Positions 109 through 7,091 of a stretch of DNA of 12,315 nt are shown one piece after another. A program made the position numbers and the translations under genes. This stretch comes from Chloroflexota bacterium (GTDB taxonomy: Bacteria; Chloroflexota; Anaerolineae; B4-G1; SLSP01): positions 1 to 12,315 of the forward strand of contig JAKJAE010000054.1 of NCBI GenBank assembly GCA_022707665.1, in the 5' to 3' direction. Each line of letters opens with the position of its first letter. Within the stretch, counting starts at the first letter, position 1. The notes under the pieces are model-generated. The model saw only the letters and a list, made by a program, of their open reading frames with translations, had not been told where the DNA came from and made no database searches.

Positions 109-2634
109 TCAGGAATTCCCGAACTGCACTTTCGTACCACCTCGGAGCTGTAGATCGGCCCAGCGGGCTGCCACTCCCAGCCACTCGAGCGCGTGGAACC
201 TGTCTGCGTGCAGACGCTCCGCCAAGGCCGCCACGTCAGGATAGCGCTTGCCGTCGCGCTTGAGCTGGTAGTAACCGCGCCACAGCCACGGACCATAGAG
301 ATCCTGGGGCTCGCCGGCGCGGTTGATGTCCTCTCCTTGCGCAGCCCGCCGGTCAGTGGCCTCGCGGTAGTCGGCATAGAGCGCCAGAAGAGTTCGGATC
401 ACGCTGTGCGGCGCACCGCCCTCGCGCAGGTCTACCAGGTGGCCTTCCATGCCGCTGACCGTATCGAGATCGCGACTGTCCCTCGAGAGGCCAAACCTCT
501 CCCAGGACAGAGGAATATTAAGAAAGGTGACGGCATTCTTCGTGTGCGCCACACCGTCCCGGCCCAACCAGCGGAGGTGTTTGGCCGCACTTTCGGCGTC
601 GCCGGCATCTTTCGCGGCCTGGTAGAGCGGGTACTTGCCACCGATCAGCACGATGCCGGCACTCGCGTGGATGTCCGGATGGTGCCCCGCGAACACTTCG
701 AGGTCGGCGCGAATCCTCTGAGCCAGCGGCGCAATGCGGTCCCAGGACCCGACAAAAAAGAGATCATCTCCACCGGAATAGATGGTGTAGAGAGTGTCGC
801 CTCGCTCTTGGCTGCGGCCCTCGACGTTCATTTCCTGCGCAATGGCGCCCACCCAGCCATCGAAAAAGAGGCTGATGGCGAAGCTCAACGATGCTACCCG
901 CGAGAGCGATGCAGTCGGCCCCAAACCATCCGAGAAAAGCAGTCCAAGGTTGTCAACGTCCATCCGCAGCACGCCCAGCCGGGCCACACCTTTTGCTTGG
1001 GCGGCCATCACGGAGAAGGGCTTGACGCTGCCTGCAGCCGGCAAGTCCTCAACGATGCCACGCAGGTCGTCGATCTCGGCCTGGGTGATGACAGGTGTGA
1101 CGTTGACGAGGAAGCGCCGCCCAATGGCGGTGTCAACCGTGGGCGACAGCGCGGCTAGGCCGTCATCGTCGAGCGCCAGCAGCAACCTGCGCCTGCCGTC
1201 TCCGCTGGGAGGATGAACGGCGACACAGGCGCCCATACCGAGGTCGGCAAGGACGCTCTGCCATGTATCCTGGGTCGCCGACGCGACGTTCGGCTCCAGC
1301 GCCAGCGCCAGGTACCGGGCCTGACGGAGGTCCTTGCCCAGGGCCTCGTACTCGCGACAGAGAGGGCACTTGCGCACGCCGGCTTCCAGTTCGATGTTGA
1401 TGTGTTCGCGTCCGCAGACATCGCATTGGCCGTCCTGATTTCCACCGCGCTCGTATGGCTCAAAGAGCCTGGCCAGGCCTGGCCCGAGCTCAGCAAAGCG
1501 CCGTTGCTTTGCGCGCTGCAACTGCTGTCCGAGGGTCTCCCACGCCTGGCCGATGTGGCCGCCTCCGAGGTCGGACGCTGTCAGTGGCTGCCAGGCCAGT
1601 GCAAGGTAGAGCTCGCCGCCATGATGGCGCCAGAGCGTGTCGCTGATCTCCTGTTGGACCATCTGCAGTGCATTTTCGGCATTGGGTGGAACCAGTAGGT
1701 AGAAGTTACCCCCTCCCTGGTACACGACGTTGGTGGGTGGCATACCAACGCCACTGAGCACGCGGCGCGCAAGGGCCTCGGTCAAGAGCTGCAGGTAGTA
1801 GGACCGTCCGCGCAGAGCGCTGGTTGCCCCTCGCGCTGCAATCGTGTAGATGAAGTCCTGAATTCCACTCAGATCGCCACCCACGAGCAACGCCACGGGT
1901 ATGCCAACCGATGCGGGTGGTGGTGTGCCTTCCCCGGCCTTGTACCAGGAGGTGAGTCCTCCTAGGAGGCGGTCGATCTGGTTCTCCTCCATGCCCACCA
2001 GGCACGCGGCAAGGGCCGCCGTCATACGGCTGTGGTCATAGAGACTCACGTCGGGCACCGACCGGTAATAAGCCGCGGGAATGCACCAGGTAGTCCTCTG
2101 GAGGAGCAACAGCATGCTATCCAGGTATGTGGCGAGGTCTCCCAAAGGAGTGTGGGCATCGCGCAGCGCCGATACCTCTTTGGTGAACAGCGCCCACAGA
2201 TGCCGGTAGCCTGCGGATTCCTCCGCCTCGCTTACTTCCGACCTTGGGAAGAGTGCCTCGCGTGAAAGCTGCAATGGCTCCAGCGGCCAGTAGCGTGGCG
2301 AAGGGCTGGGCATCCCATCCTTGGGCTTGAGTTGGCTCAAGACCGATAAGAGCTGACGGCGCTGGGGTTCCTGTTCGTCCAAGCGTTCCCGGGCCGATAG
2401 GCGATCTGCCAGGGCAACGCGCTTCGTCTCCAGGTCGACCATCTCGTGGTCGTGGTGTCCCATCACCGGATAGAGGTGGCTGCGCCACTGCTGTGGGATA
2501 AAGGTAGCGACCACCTCGCCTCCTACCTGAGTGTGGCTGCCCTTGGTGTACCCTGCCCGCTGCGCGAACTTGCCGATATCGTGTAGCAGGCCTGCCAGTG
2601 CGGCCAGGTAGACGTCCTCGTTCTTTTCCTCCAT
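109..2634 (-). CDS. cas10: Cas10/Csm1, large subunit of a type III-A CRISPR effector complex
   Basis: Signature subunit of a Csm complex. On target RNA binding, family members cut single-stranded DNA with the HD domain and make cyclic oligoadenylate with the Palm domain. The 841-residue product has an N-terminal HD domain (HDIGK near 18-22, GHHDH near 59-63, then ADRLSARER near 76-84). A Palm-like segment has GGDLSGIQDF near 252-261. A zinc-binding pair of CxxC motifs lies at about 404-407 and 423-426. The catalytic Palm carries VLRMDVDNLG near 555-564 and the cyclase motif GGDD at about 621-624. All key motifs are intact, so both activities are predicted. The zinc motif position and Palm layout resemble Csm1 more than Cmr2. 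I use ATG at 2634 because AGGAGGT (2645-2639) lies five bases upstream; an in-frame GTG at 2640 overlaps that site. Length is normal for Csm1. Confidence 0.96.
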   Translation of the reverse strand: MEEKNEDVYLAALAGLLHDIGKFAQRAGYTKGSHTQVGGEVVATFIPQQWRSHLYPVMGHHDHEMVDLETKRVALADRLSARERLDEQEPQRRQLLSVLSQLKPKDGMPSPSPRYWPLEPLQLSREALFPRSEVSEAEESAGYRHLWALFTKEVSALRDAHTPLGDLATYLDSMLLLLQRTTWCIPAAYYRSVPDVSLYDHSRMTAALAACLVGMEENQIDRLLGGLTSWYKAGEGTPPPASVGIPVALLVGGDLSGIQDFIYTIAARGATSALRGRSYYLQLLTEALARRVLSGVGMPPTNVVYQGGGNFYLLVPPNAENALQMVQQEISDTLWRHHGGELYLALAWQPLTASDLGGGHIGQAWETLGQQLQRAKQRRFAELGPGLARLFEPYERGGNQDGQCDVCGREHINIELEAGVRKCPLCREYEALGKDLRQARYLALALEPNVASATQDTWQSVLADLGMGACVAVHPPSGDGRRRLLLALDDDGLAALSPTVDTAIGRRFLVNVTPVITQAEIDDLRGIVEDLPAAGSVKPFSVMAAQAKGVARLGVLRMDVDNLGLLFSDGLGPTASLSRVASLSFAISLFFDGWVGAIAQEMNVEGRSQERGDTLYTIYSGGDDLFFVGSWDRIAPLAQRIRADLEVFAGHHPDIHASAGIVLIGGKYPLYQAAKDAGDAESAAKHLRWLGRDGVAHTKNAVTFLNIPLSWERFGLSRDSRDLDTVSGMEGHLVDLREGGAPHSVIRTLLALYADYREATDRRAAQGEDINRAGEPQDLYGPWLWRGYYQLKRDGKRYPDVAALAERLHADRFHALEWLGVAARWADLQLRGGTKVQFGNS

Positions 2635-2638
2635 ATGC

Positions 2639-2645
2639 ACCTCCT
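2639..2645 (-). promoter_or_regulatory. Ribosome binding site that fixes the cas10 start
   Basis: AGGAGGT read on the minus strand is a near-perfect Shine-Dalgarno sequence. Its spacing to ATG at 2634 is five bases. The alternative GTG start at 2640 lies inside this element, so the longer form is unlikely. Confidence 0.8.
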
Positions 2646-2717: not shown

Positions 2718-2745
2718 ACCCTAGCACATCTGGCGCACCGGCGAA
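2718..2745 (-). promoter_or_regulatory. Possible promoter for the cas10 operon
   Basis: On the minus strand an extended -10 candidate TGCTAGGGT (2726-2718) is preceded after 16 bases by TTCGCC (2745-2740). The -35 match is weak and the -10 is imperfect, so this is tentative. It would place a start about 75 bases before cas10 and outside the upstream regulator gene. The rest of the 2641-2821 gap holds two small hairpins (around 2769-2785 and the GGCCGCGGCC palindrome near 2790) and a palindrome described separately. Confidence 0.25.
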
Positions 2746-2805
2746 TCGGGGCTTCCTCTGAATCCATCTCGGAGTTTTCTCCGATGTGGGCCGCGGCCTC
2801 TTCTG

Positions 2806-2820
2806 GTATGCTCAGCATAC
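2806..2820. promoter_or_regulatory. Perfect 7-base inverted repeat, operator candidate
   Basis: GTATGCT and AGCATAC flank a single central base. The symmetric 15-base site starts two bases after the stop codon of the CARF-HTH gene and lies upstream of cas10. Symmetric sites of this size are typical targets for dimeric LuxR-type regulators. The neighbouring gene encodes one, so an operator is a reasonable guess. There is no T-run after it, so a terminator is less likely. Confidence 0.3.
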
Positions 2821-2821
2821 T

Positions 2822-3727
2822 CTAAGGGGCGGGGGTGTCCCGCAACCACGACCCGAACGTCTCGCGAAGAAAGTGATAGGTCAGATGGGCGTCATCCGCC
2901 AACTTCCATGCGACCCGGCACTCCGCCAGGATCTGGGTCTTGTGGGTATCGAGTGTCTTGAGCGAGATGCCCAACGCATCGGCGGCTTCCTGAGGGAGCA
3001 TCCCATGGGCGAGCACGCGCACGACGTCCTGTTGCCGCGCCGTCAGGCGCTCCCATACGGCGTTGCAGGCCGCGGCGTCGGCGGGAGCAAGCGCTGGTGC
3101 CGTTCCCGGGGCCACCAGCGCCCGCAGCCCCGGCAGGTAGGCCCCCCAGGGCACCAGGGGCACCGGCACGAGGGTTACCCCGGCCTCCGCCGGAGCGTGC
3201 AGGATCGCGCCATCGCGGGCTTGTGCCAGGAAGTCGGGGGGTGTATAGAGATGCCAGAGCCGGTCGTGGTGGTCGCAGTAGAGCGCCGCGGCGCTGGTGA
3301 GCGTCAGAGCCAGAATGCGCGGTCCGCCGGCCAGACACAGATGGACCTGCACGCCTTCCTGCTTCAGCCCGGCCAACAAGTCACGCCCGAAAGCCCAGGC
3401 CCCGGCTGCCTCTTGCTCATTGGTAATGGCGACCAAGGGTCGCCCGGCAATCAGCGGTTGCCCGGCAGCCAGCGGCTGGCCGGCAACCTGGCGCCCGCCG
3501 GCCAGCACCGGCACGTGGCGGAACTGCAACGGCTGACCAACGTAACGATCGCCGGCAAACTCGGCCGTGAGTTGGCTCAACGCCCGTCGCACCCGCGGCT
3601 CGTGGGGCGCCACGTGCAGTACCAGCAGGCGCGAGACATGATGCCCGGCCGCGAGCAACCCATCAAGGGCGAAGGTGACAACCTGCGCCTGGCCGCCCAG
3701 CGTCACCAGCGCGACCGATGTGGACAT
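2822..3727 (-). CDS. CARF-like (NE0113/Csx14-type) sensor fused to a LuxR-type HTH; probable cOA-responsive regulator
   Basis: The 301-residue product has two parts. Residues 1 to about 205 look like a CARF sensor of the NE0113-like group: an N-terminal strand (SVALVTLGGQAQVVT), then the ligand-loop region HLCLAGGPRILALTLTSAAA around 129-148, then DRLWHLYTPP. The common GGRK signature appears here as GGPR. Residues about 224-275 match a LuxR/GerE helix-turn-helix: LTARQQDVVRVLAHG, QEAADALGIS, KTLDTHKTQILAE. CARF domains bind cyclic oligoadenylate made by Cas10, so a cOA-controlled transcription factor is the natural inference. No nuclease motif is visible. The gene lies between divergent csx3 and downstream cas10. 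The start at ATG 3727 has only a weak GAAAG site; an in-frame GTG seven codons upstream is possible. The reading frame stays open to 4210, but that extension overlaps the real plus-strand gene. Confidence 0.82.
   Translation of the reverse strand: MSTSVALVTLGGQAQVVTFALDGLLAAGHHVSRLLVLHVAPHEPRVRRALSQLTAEFAGDRYVGQPLQFRHVPVLAGGRQVAGQPLAAGQPLIAGRPLVAITNEQEAAGAWAFGRDLLAGLKQEGVQVHLCLAGGPRILALTLTSAAALYCDHHDRLWHLYTPPDFLAQARDGAILHAPAEAGVTLVPVPLVPWGAYLPGLRALVAPGTAPALAPADAAACNAVWERLTARQQDVVRVLAHGMLPQEAADALGISLKTLDTHKTQILAECRVAWKLADDAHLTYHFLRETFGSWLRDTPAP
3441..3512. repeat. Four tandem 18-base units inside the CARF-HTH gene
   Basis: Four consecutive 18-base units, each carrying a CCGGC-like core, encode a hexapeptide repeat around residues 76-100 (AGGRQV, AGQPLA, AGQPLI, AGRPLV). 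The repeat stays in frame and falls between the N-terminal strand and the ligand-loop region of the sensor domain. Units differ at several positions, so it is an old or diverging duplication rather than a fresh slippage. Confidence 0.6.
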
Positions 3728-3769
3728 CTCATCTGCTTTCAGGAGCACTTCCCTCAACAACACTGAGAG

Positions 3770-4959
3770 ATGACTATGACCTGCAGCGCATATGATACGA
3801 GCGCTTCGACGGGGGGGCAAATGGCCTACAACCCTTTGCCAGCGGTGGCCATCGGTGGCCCGCCTCACAGCGGTAAGTCCGTCCTCGTCTATAGCTTGAC
3901 GCAGGCCTTGCGCGCCCTGGATGTGGATCACTACGTCATTCGAGCGTATCCTCCCGATGGCGAAGGCGATTGGTTCCTGGAGGGTGATCCCGAGACGGTG
4001 CGGTCCTTCCGTCGCAAGGGGGCCGGGAGCGAGGCGTGGCTGGCTCCCCTGGTGCGCGATATCGCCCGGCGCCATCTCCCGCTCGTCGTCGACCTGGGTG
4101 GGATGCCGACGCCCGACCAGGAGGCCGCCCTCGATGTCTGCACTCACGCGATCCTGCTCGTGCGGCAGTGTATGACTGGTGGGGCACTCGCGCGAGATGT
4201 CGCGGCGCACCGTGTGTGGTCACAGCGCTTCGGGCGCCACGGGTTGGTGCTGCTGGCGGATCTCGACTCGGTGTTGGATGGCGTGAGTGTGCTCGAAGGC
4301 GATGCACCGATCATCACGGGCACGCTGGCGGGGTTGGAGCGCGGGACGCGGGCGGAGGGGCCGCAAGTGCGGGCCTCGCTCGCCATCATCTGGCGACGGC
4401 GCCGGTCGAGCTTGCGATCGATCTGGCGGCGCTTGCGCGGACGCTGGCGATTCACCCACTGGCCTGGCCCTCCGAGGTGTTGCCCAGGGTGCTGGCTTAT
4501 TTGCCGGAGGGCGAGCCGCTCGCCGTCTATGGGCGCGGGCCCAACTGGCTCTATGCGGCGATCGCGGCCCATGCCTTTCCAGCCCCCTTCTACCTCTTCG
4601 ACGTGCGCTGTGGGTGGGTGCGCGCACCGGATCTTGCGGCAGGCATGCCCGATTCGGGCGCGCCGGTCACTGTGGTGGTCACAGACCGCGATGGGACAGC
4701 GCGGCTGGACATTGGGCTGCGCGATGCCTATGTGGACCGTGCCGAGGTGCAGGGTCTGCACGTTCCCGACATTGCCGCGCCCACCGTCATTCTCTGTGGC
4801 AAGCTACCCCAATGGCTGTGGGCCAGCCTCGCACGAGCCTATGCTGGCTACCGGGTTGCCGTTGTCCAGCCGCAGATCGGTGGAGCCGTCGTGGTCCGCG
4901 ATCCGGTGCTGCACCGCATCGGCAGCCGCCTCCCGTTTAAGCCCCGTGCGGCGCGATAG
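3770..4959 (+). CDS. csx3: ATPase-Csx3 fusion, apparent frameshift; predicted cOA ring nuclease (Crn3-like)
   Basis: Csx3 proteins degrade cyclic tetra-adenylate, switching off type III CRISPR signalling. Fusions to an ATPase-like domain are known. Joining two frames gives about 396 residues. The N-terminal half has a P-loop (GGPPHSGKS near 29-37), the segment PPDGEGDW near 61-68 and a Walker B-like VVDLGG near 106-111. The C-terminal half has two Csx3-like units: GRGPNWLY near 255-262, and GKLPQWLW near 344-351 followed by GGAVVV near 371-376. The first frame stays open to 5029 but stops looking like Csx3 after about 4374; the second frame continues the family sequence to TAG at 4957-4959. 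One lost base near 4374 explains this, so the gene is either broken or affected by a sequencing error. Start choice is uncertain: ATG 3770, 3776 or 3821. Family resemblance and a TATGAT box at 3791-3796 favour 3821. It is divergent from the CARF-HTH gene. Confidence 0.85.
4370..4380 (+). other. Frameshift site within csx3
   Basis: Upstream of here the family-like protein is read in the frame of ATG 3770 (ending AEGPQVRA). Downstream it is read one base earlier (LARHHLATAPVEL). Adding one base to the CC at 4374-4375, giving CGG GCC CTC GCT, restores a single frame. I see no X-XXY-YYZ slippery heptamer, so programmed frameshifting is not supported. Confidence 0.75.
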
Positions 4960-5001
4960 CCCTGAGCCTTGGCCTGCGCGTCTGGCCCGTCCCCGCGCGC
5001 G

Positions 5002-5010
5002 TGGTATACT
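5002..5010 (+). promoter_or_regulatory. Extended -10 promoter for the two-component operon
   Basis: TGGTATACT combines the extended TG element with a TATACT -10 box, five of six consensus bases. No good -35 is seen at standard distance, as is usual for extended -10 promoters. Transcription would start near 5017, about 45 bases before the kinase gene. This suggests the kinase pair has its own promoter and is not only read through from csx3. Confidence 0.5.
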
Positions 5011-5061
5011 GCACCTACCGGCATCTTGAGCATTCGGAGATGCGGACCCTAAGGTGGGGCG

Positions 5062-6420
5062 ATGACGATAGCGGCGGTGCTGGGCCATTTTAGCCACGGG
5101 TTGGTGTTTTTCACCCTGGGCTTGACCGTGAGTTTCCTGCACTACCGCAGCCGCCGGATCTCCTTGGCCCGGCACCTGGGCTGGCTGGGCGGGTTCGCGA
5201 TGGGCGAGGCGCTGTATGCCTGGTATGAGATCCTCGCGATGCTGCTGCCCGCCGGGCGGCTCCTGCCCGTGGTCGTGCCCCCCATCGTCCTGGTGTCCGC
5301 CTACATCGGCCTCCTGGTCTTTGGGCTCCAGACGTTTATGTCGGAGGAGACCTACCGCAGACGTAGCCGGACGCTGTGGTTGGCCCTGAGCGCGATCTCG
5401 CTGTCTGCCTACGTGCTGGCGTTGTGGGGCTTCCACGTCGATGAGAACGTGGTAGTGCGTACGACCGAGGTGCTGGCGCGCTATCTGCTGGCCTTCCCCG
5501 GGGGAGTGCTGACCGCGATCGGCCTGCGCCGCCAGAGCTATCAATCGCTCGATGGCATGCTGCGGGCGCGGATCCGTCCGGCCCTGCGCCTCATCGAGAT
5601 CACGATGGCGACGTTTGGGTTGCTCAACCTGGTGATGGTGCCCGGGGTCGACAGGCCGGTCTCGCGCCTGTTCGGTTTCCACCTCATCGACTCGGCGGTG
5701 ACGGGCTGGGTATGGGCTGCGGTGGGCCTGGGCATCACGGTCGGGCTGGTGCGCTCGCTGACGACGATCCAGCACGAGGTCGAGACGTGGGTTGAGGACG
5801 TGGAGCGGCTGCAGGCGATGGCGGAGGACCGCGAGCGTATCGGACGCGATCTGCACGACGGCATCATCCAGTCGATCTATGCCGCCGGCCTGTTGCTGGA
5901 GAGCGTTATCCCGGTTATTCACACCGATCCCGACCGGGCGCAGGGACAGGTGGGCCGGGTGATCGACAATCTCAATTACACGATCCAGGATATCCGGCGC
6001 TATATCTTCGATCTGCGCAGCGATATGCCCGATGACGATCTCCAACCGGGCATAGAGCACCTGTTGCGCGACTTCCATGTCAATACGCTGCTGCAGACCG
6101 AGTTTGAGGTGGTGGGAGCGGTGCGCCCGATTCACTCGATGGCCCGTCGCCGGCACATCCTGCAGATCGTGCGCGAGGCGTTGGCCAACACGGCCAAGCA
6201 CGCACAGGCGCGCTGGGTCCGGGTGCGGCTGACTTATGACACCGACAGCCTCAACCTGGTGATCTCGGATGACGGGGTCGGGATGGAGAAGCTGCTGATC
6301 AGCAAAGGCTATGGGTTGCGCAACATCCGCGAGCGGACGCGTCTGCTCGACGGCACCCTGCGCATTGAGAGCGCGCCCGGAGCGGGCGTGACCTTCGATC
6401 TGACGGTACCGTATTCGTGA
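5062..6420 (+). CDS. Multi-pass membrane sensor histidine kinase, NarL/DesK type (HisKA_3)
   Basis: The 452-residue protein autophosphorylates a histidine and passes phosphate to a response regulator. The first 235 residues form about seven hydrophobic segments, near 10-27, 40-60, 67-92, 104-123, 136-154, 176-194 and 212-231, with very short loops; no periplasmic ligand domain is visible, so the stimulus is likely sensed in the membrane. A linker (236-256) leads to the HisKA_3 H-box [14 protein letters not shown], with phospho-acceptor His at about 265. The HATPase domain shows EALANTAKH (N-box, about 372-380), DDGVGM (403-408) and [16 protein letters not shown] (416-431). ATG 5062 is preceded by AGGTGG with a short spacer. 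The stop TGA overlaps the region of the regulator's ribosome binding site, so the two are translationally linked. The signal is unknown. Confidence 0.92.
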
Positions 6421-6428
6421 GGTGGCCA

Positions 6429-7091
6429 ATGACCTACAGGATCCTGGTGGTGGACGACCACGAGATTGTGCGGTTGGGATTGCGGACGCTGTTGAGCAAC
6501 CAGCCTGACTTCACCGTTGTCGACGAGGCGGGATCGGCGGAAGAGGCCGTGGAGAAGACGGTGCTTCATAATCCTGACGTCGTGGTGATGGACATCCGCA
6601 TGCCCGGCAAGAACGGGATCGATGCCTGCCGCGAGATCAAGCAGAAGCTCCCGAATGTCCACGTCCTGATGTTGACGTCCTTTGCTGAGGATGAGATGCT
6701 GTTCGAGGCCATCGAGGCGGGGGCCGCCGGCTACGTCCTCAAGCAGGGAGGGGGCGAGGATCTCGTGCGTGCCGTGCGGCGCGTGGGCGGTGGCGATGCG
6801 TTGCTCGACCCCGCGGTGACCCAGCGCGTGCTCGAGCGGGTACGTGAGGCGGGCCGCCAGGAGCAGGCCGCGTCCTTCAAGGACCTCACCGAACAGGAGC
6901 TCAAGGTCCTCGGGCTGGTGTCGCAGGGACACACGAACAAGGAGATCGCCAAGGAGCTCTTCCTCGGCGAGGGCACGGTCCGTAATTACGTCAGCAGCAT
7001 CCTGTCGAAGCTGGATCTGACCAACCGGGCGGAGGCCGCGGCCTATGCGGTCCGCCACAACCTGCGGGAATACCTCGAGGAGCTTGGATGA
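6429..7091 (+). CDS. NarL/LuxR-family response regulator, partner of the adjacent kinase
   Basis: This 220-residue DNA-binding regulator has a receiver domain at 1-120: acidic pair D9-D10, phospho-acceptor D55 in [10 protein letters not shown]83 in LMLTS, and K105 in YVLKQ. A linker follows (about 121-150), then a LuxR/GerE helix-turn-helix at about 153-210 ([25 protein letters not shown] is its first half). All phosphorylation residues are present. I use ATG 6429 because GAGGTGG at 6419-6425 is well placed for it; an in-frame GTG at 6417 overlaps the kinase stop and would lack a site. Gene order and overlap make it the cognate partner of the kinase. Its targets are unknown. Proximity to the CRISPR genes may be chance. 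Confidence 0.93.

Follow-up and report, generated by a model that had tools for sequence, protein, structure and literature searches.

A CARF protein with a LuxR-type helix-turn-helix and a candidate tandem operator in a Chloroflexota type III CRISPR locus

The window (the whole stretch of DNA analysed, 12,315 nucleotides of contig JAKJAE010000054.1 from a Chloroflexota bacterium) contains a type III CRISPR locus with a gene on the minus strand, here called CARF-LuxR, whose product joins a CARF domain to a GerE/LuxR-type helix-turn-helix (HTH). Two 16-bp dyad boxes are located between the stop codon of this gene and the next gene and form a candidate operator; in relatives, such boxes lie ahead of cas10, cas6 or nuclease genes. 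The features of the locus are as follows.

2822..3727, minus strand: CARF-LuxR (GerE) regulator gene, an open reading frame (ORF) of 301 amino acids plus stop, with Pfam and PADLOC matches and a structure model.
3104..3685, minus strand: CARF (Cas_NE0113) domain, residues 15–208, from Pfam, the alignment of relatives and fold matches.
2927..3049, minus strand: GerE/LuxR HTH, residues 227–267, from Pfam, PDB-profile matches and model helices.
2769..2784, minus strand: candidate operator box 1 (distal), TCGGAGAAAACTCCGA on the minus strand, from the box pattern, the R1 model (below) and the geometry test.
2746..2761, minus strand: candidate operator box 2 (proximal), TCAGAGGAAGCCCCGA, 23 bp from box 1, from the box pattern and the geometry test.
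2718..2723, minus strand: weak −10-like TAGGGT, 22 nt beyond box 2 and thereby placing box 2 at about −42.5, from the sequence and an offset kept in relatives.
2806..2820, no strand: 15-bp perfect palindrome, not conserved, from mismatch statistics and comparison with the fetched loci.
109..2640, minus strand: cas10/csm1, with HD and palm domains, GGDD in the translation and a probable ATG start at 2634; the likely regulated gene (Csm1 equivalog, 1.3e-183).
3770..4375, plus strand: AAA part of the divergent AAA-csx3, first frame, likely ATG start at 3821 (PADLOC PDLC01059 AAA-Csx3, 5.7e-59).
4369..4959, plus strand: Csx3/Crn3 part of AAA-csx3, other frame (PDLC01059, 1.9e-37; Pfam Cas_csx3, 1.2e-11).

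Pfam assigns residues 15–208 of CARF-LuxR to Cas_NE0113 (PF09623; E = 1.7e-30, 106.8 bits, cut-off 23) and residues 227–267 to GerE (2e-6, 27.8 bits, cut-off 23.5). The first-pass annotation, made from the sequence alone, had described a CARF-like sensor joined to a LuxR-type HTH, and this observation is confirmed. The structure model has the Rossmann-like CARF fold which that annotation had expected, with fold matches over residues 1–207 placing it near Cad1-CARF, Crn1 and Csa3. Whole-chain fold matches to Card1 and Csa3 had rmsd values of 12–18 Å and were uninformative on domain arrangement. The HTH of the model consists of helices 230–240, 245–252 and 256–273, with the recognition helix around K-T258-L-D260-T-H-K263, and its profile matches HTHs of the LiaR/VraR/NarL type in the PDB (best 1.4e-10). 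The protein has no Pfam match to the Response_reg receiver domain, and a GerE HTH is found instead of the C-terminal winged HTH of Csa3. The segment GGQAQVVT (residues 11–18), which lies just N-terminal of the CARF domain and extends into it, is invariant in the alignment of relatives. The loop at residues 133–137 is AGGPR in the window protein and AGG-P/R-R across relatives; all 35 aligned have G134, G135 and R137, with either P or R at position 136. The GGPR loop, earlier regarded as a peculiarity of this protein, is thus a family feature.

The boxes of most near relatives have the form TC(A/G)GAG-N4-(C/T)TC(C/T)GA and are 22 or 23 bp apart, centre to centre. In the window and loci L003–L023, from part of which the pattern was derived, 26 boxes occur at 0–1 mismatch versus 1.95 in shuffles, while the count at ≤2 mismatches (47 versus 30.15) is near chance. 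The tandem pattern occurs 11 times in 9 of 18 whole genomes, nine of these occurrences adjoining a CARF-LuxR gene, and the reversed tandem pattern has no occurrence in the same 18; a fixed 22-bp version misses the window, where the spacing is 23. R1, a sequence-only operator model that was trained on 16 sites, the window among them, and that describes one box class, matches the window at 2720–2787 (E = 7.3e-9, for a training sequence), the single place at E≤1 in the window's own genome. At E≤1e-3, R1 matched 25 of the 396 genomes of the window's class, and 21 of the 25 have the CARF-LuxR protein (Fisher 1.4e-8). When the 11 training genomes are left out, the protein is present in 10 of 14 matched genomes (8.1e-4), and a match lies within 250 nt of the 3′ end of CARF-LuxR in eight of the 14 (G244, G048, G145, G248, G392, G082, G141 and G247; the protein match in G141 is a fragment only).

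The operator was also sought without reference to box sequence, by a test that scores dyads, spacing and the −10. Class genomes and earlier loci together gave 106 loci with a match, or 91 distinct loci once those with identical first 150 residues were merged, 85 of which have enough clean downstream DNA. The test was passed at p≤0.05 by 41 of the 85 with dinucleotide shuffles and by 39 with mononucleotide shuffles. By this measure, roughly half of the loci carry a clear operator of this type and the others do not.

Two other sites had been proposed for DNA binding. The palindrome at 2806–2820 is real (mean expected in the window 0.01 at ≤2 mismatches), but among the 155 loci fetched it is found only in four, all of them pieces of the window's own contig; it was rejected as the operator, the conserved site being 2746–2784 instead. 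The stretch 3728–3769 contains no conserved-type box at 0–1 mismatch, and its lone 2-mismatch match starts at 3764. The csx3/CARF intergenic stretch was likewise rejected as a general operator, as a 0–1-mismatch box is found there only in L015 and L016.

The position of the boxes relative to the promoter is also conserved. Of 24 loci with boxes picked by sequence alone, 19 have a TA...T hexamer that starts exactly 22 nt past box 2; in three it starts at 21 nt and in two at 23 nt (mean 0.73 per offset). If this hexamer is taken as −12 to −7, box 2 is centered at −42.5 and box 1 at −64.5 or −65.5. The lux box is located at −42.5, where LuxR and several NarL-type activators bind, a class II activator layout.

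The box sequence follows the recognition helix of the protein encoded next to it. We compared 39 loci with a geometry-test p≤0.05, whose boxes had been found without regard to the protein, by Mantel tests. Operator distance correlates with recognition-helix distance (0.58), and this remains so with CARF distance held fixed (partial Mantel 0.536, p 0.0005), while operator and CARF distance are uncorrelated once the helix is controlled for (0.004, p 0.47) and the relation to the rest of the HTH is weak (0.139, p 0.061). Where the D260 position holds an aspartate, half-site position 4 is G in 29 of 30 loci, compared with one of six where the residue is N or R (p 9.3e-5, uncorrected for relatedness). 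D260 and T261 correspond to the base-contacting K188 and V189 of NarL. Loci with [V/I]HAHK helices (L012, L014 and L059) have TTGGAA-like half-sites, a fourth HAHK locus (L060) showing no clear operator, and those with DSHL helices (L121, L122, L124, L125 and L127) have mostly TCCGG/TCGGG-like ones. This co-variation is the strongest sign that CARF-LuxR, rather than a neighbour, would be the protein that reads the boxes.

The gene is steadily associated with type III CRISPR genes. It is followed by cas10 on the same strand and is divergent from AAA-csx3, as the first-pass annotation had it, except that the latter gene is split over two frames. The PADLOC AAA-Csx3 model matches residues 21–202 of ORF 3770–5029 and residues 112–301 of ORF 4036–4959, which places a frame change near 4370; in L003 the gene is a single ORF of 427 aa with a Cas_csx3 match. 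The split in the window may be either a real frameshift or an assembly error. Genes of csm type were found by RAMP matches and ORFs on contig C211 of the same genome, which is 73% complete; their order, csm2-csm3-csm4, is the one seen after cas10 in L003.

A homologue search of 5.8 billion proteins gave 7996 scored candidates, 305 of them at E≤1e-5, of which the best 120 were listed. Genome contigs yielded 19 CARF-LuxR loci, of which 18 carry Chloroflexota group labels and the remaining one that of a gammaproteobacterial bin. AAA-csx3 is divergent at the next position in all 19, and cas10 was matched by tblastn in only eight, because several of the others have cas10 of other subtypes. A CARF-LuxR match at E≤1e-20 is present in 120 of the 396 class genomes. 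Of the 91 distinct loci, 78 have AAA-csx3 in divergent orientation and 2 have it pointing the same way; 6 lack it although there is room, and 5 could not be scored, so it stands beside CARF-LuxR in 80 of the 86 loci with room. The relatives are thus located in type III loci, the neighbourhood that was anticipated for them. Among 69 first downstream ORFs, PADLOC identifies 31 Cas10 proteins and 11 CARF4-PD-(D/E)xK nucleases, and Pfam identifies four Cas6, three RAMP and two RtcB. The Cas10 subtypes vary, with both Csm1-like and Cmr2-like proteins present and several under the curated cut-off. Given this variation and the steady presence of AAA-csx3, the CARF-LuxR and AAA-Csx3 module is more constant than the effector type behind it.

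Several other features were observed in these neighbourhoods. An RtcB RNA ligase gene follows the CARF-LuxR relative by 25–27 nt at L136 (998–2446, minus strand) and L141 (2408–3856, plus strand), with AAA-csx3 also adjoining, an arrangement reminiscent of the CARF regulator RtcR of other bacteria. In L004–L006, a TATAAT lies 9–10 nt upstream of an ATG of the CARF-LuxR gene, the arrangement of a leaderless message. Pfam detects a SLFN_AlbA_2 and NACHT protein (679–705 aa) between cas10 and csm2 of three type III operons (L010, 4694–6733; L018, 5039–7138; L019, 11425–13542), possibly an undescribed effector. Adjoining the window locus, at 5062–7091 on the plus strand, is a pair of genes for a histidine kinase and a NarL-type response regulator, the GerE HTH of which is of the ordinary kind.

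On balance, we favour a role for CARF-LuxR as a one-component activator of CRISPR genes that senses cyclic oligoadenylate (cOA), with AAA-Csx3/Crn3 as the eraser of the signal. In such a system, Cas10 would make cOA, which the CARF domain would bind, and the LuxR-type HTH would place two dimers on the tandem dyad boxes at the cas-operon promoter. With box 2 at −42.5, in position for contact with RNA polymerase, binding would activate transcription in the class II manner. Infection would then raise cas10-csm output in a positive feedback, and in some relatives that of other cas operons too, until the divergent AAA-Csx3, with its domain of the Crn3 ring nuclease type, erased the signal. cA4 is cleaved by Crn3/Csx3, which in some cases is joined to an AAA domain whose function is unknown (available text of PMC12409355); cA4 is therefore the most likely ligand. 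The earlier interpretation, of a transcription factor driven by cOA, is partly supported as a whole: the fusion of sensor and HTH and the type III neighbourhood are borne out, the two proposed DNA sites are not, and cOA is the predicted ligand.

Several observations weigh against this proposal. R1, which covers one box class under strict filters, has no match at 1e-3 in 99 of the 120 class genomes with a protein match, and 44 of the 85 loci fail the sequence-free test, whose gene-interior control (9/90) exceeds the nominal 5% and whose reversed-stretch control, which keeps the dyads, passes in 15 of 85. Four R1-positive genomes (G188, G049, G037 and G068) lack a detected CARF-LuxR protein. The loci used for the co-variation are linked and related, so that ancestry is only partly removed, and the window's own −10 (TAGGGT) is poor. 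Activation cannot be checked in the sole solved bacterial-type parallel, and Csa3a, the best-studied CARF regulator, showed neither specific nor cA4-dependent binding to its palindrome in vitro, according to the available text of PMC8699464.

The main rival to activation, which we regard as unlikely, is repression through the same operator: the cas promoter would be repressed at rest and released by cOA, or repressed on cOA binding as a negative feedback. Operator binding is as well supported under this explanation as under activation, and regulators of the WYL kind repress CRISPR loci, as stated in a part of PMC4012209. A good −35-like TTGAC abuts box 2 in L004, L005, L006 and L008, where a bound dimer could block the polymerase. 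However, several promoters, including the window's, have poor −35 and −10 elements, as is often seen in activator-dependent promoters, and box 2 at this position, together with a second dimer one turn-pair further upstream, matches the class II activator arrangement known from the lux box.

It is improbable that CARF-LuxR is mainly a ring nuclease or a cOA sponge with a structural HTH. Some relatives do carry the database names 'CRISPR-associated ring nuclease' or Csx14, and the fold is closest to Crn1 and Cad1-CARF. However, Crn1 depends on a Gly-Thr-Ser motif I and a Gly-Arg-Lys motif II, as given in a part of PMC10018336. The Gly-Thr-Ser is not found in the 35 sequences of the family, which have an invariant GGQ after strand 1 (G11-G12-Q13; a place matched by position, with no residue-level superposition), and G135-P/R-R137 stands where Crn1 has Gly-Arg-Lys, a correspondence based on loop position. 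Binding without cleavage is therefore expected, and the CARF domain is probably a non-cleaving sensor. Moreover, if the HTH were structural, its recognition-helix residues would not vary in step with a nearby DNA site. The last alternative, that the tandem boxes belong to another regulator and are tied to the CARF-LuxR gene by position only, could account for the sites in the four genomes without the protein but is very improbable, as the boxes follow the CARF-LuxR recognition helix independently of the CARF part and the HAHK and DSHL loci have half-sites of their own.

If CARF-LuxR is an activator, its targets may extend beyond the adjoining operon. In L033, a site precedes cas10/Cmr2 (57.4 bits, cut-off 79.4) on another contig of a genome with the CARF-LuxR protein, and in L008 a site at 734–804 precedes cmr1 (62.2 bits, cut-off 28.65) on the same contig. 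Sites also precede type I-B Cas8b1/Cst1 genes, all above cut-off, in L084 (E = 2.9e-5), L092 (0.0012) and L094 (0.00165), the protein not being found in the genome of L094. Elsewhere in genomes where the protein was not found, a full tandem operator (L148 in G188, 2500–2564, minus strand) stands before a cas10 that is 72% identical to that of L017, and a site precedes cas10/Cmr2 (G049; L087). Sites also lie 0.6–0.9 kb ahead of an HTH gene with a Cas3-like helicase after it, at L150 (81 bits, cut-off 102.45) and, judged by eye, at L151; for the one in G037 the distance is about 0.9 kb. Three further matches were not counted: L149 (G068), where a good R1 match (3046–3111, minus strand, E = 2.8e-6) lies ahead of a non-cas gene at the end of a contig; L089 (G320), with three repeat-like matches in the genome and a helix of the HAHK class; and L090 (G369), before an ORF that by eye resembles an alpha/beta-hydrolase. 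The match in L093 (G216; E = 0.0012) is on the opposite strand, with a TIGR02710-like CARF protein, and its status is uncertain. The case for such sites is stronger at additional type III operons than at type I genes; the link to type I is suggestive and not settled. A CRISPR-wide cOA regulon, in which CARF-LuxR raises its own cas operon, other type III operons (L033, L008) and type I-B genes (L084, L092, L094), is at present a tentative proposal.

The HTH of CARF-LuxR resembles those of LuxR/NarL/FixJ-type regulators (LiaR, VraR and NarL), which in contrast have a receiver or autoinducer domain in place of the CARF sensor. The lux boxes of LuxR-type regulators combine tandem dyads with a site at −42.5, as at the CARF-LuxR operator. 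Csa3 (Csa3a) of Sulfolobales, like CARF-LuxR, has a CARF sensor and a C-terminal DNA-binding domain, which is a winged HTH rather than a GerE HTH. Its palindrome CAPPa at cas promoters and leaders co-occurs with the gene, and Csa3a was proposed to link type III cOA signalling to type I genes (available text of PMC8699464). Cad1 has a deaminase where CARF-LuxR has an HTH, and Crn1 (Sso2081, Sis0455) has no extra domain, its catalytic GTS being GGQ in the CARF-LuxR family.

The fusion of CARF and HTH is itself not new. The architecture reported by the first-pass annotation is real but less novel than suggested, as PADLOC model PDLC01855 (CARF3; 7.9e-93) covers residues 4–296, including the HTH, and direct transcription regulation by the NE0113 family was predicted in 2014 (a part of PMC4012209). 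The CARF domain falls within this NE0113/CARF3 family (PF09623), although the protein scores 20.3 bits against the NCBIfam equivalog TIGR02584 (cas_NE0113), under its cut-off of 80.65. The family descriptions examined (in PMC4012209) differ in giving no operator or regulon. Transcriptional regulators are named among type III outputs in the 2025 classification (available text of PMC12669027). The new elements here are the candidate operator with its geometry, the specificity code and the candidate regulon; a limited literature search found no paper on CARF with a LuxR-type HTH in type III CRISPR, and an earlier description is possible.

These results describe a large bacterial family of putative CARF regulators, together with a precisely placed candidate operator, the geometry of its promoter and a clade-dependent specificity code. 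Whether type III signalling drives transcription, and of what, thereby becomes testable. The alarm signal may in addition mobilise further parts of the immune system; if the wider regulon is real, type III detection would call up DNA-cutting type I immunity.
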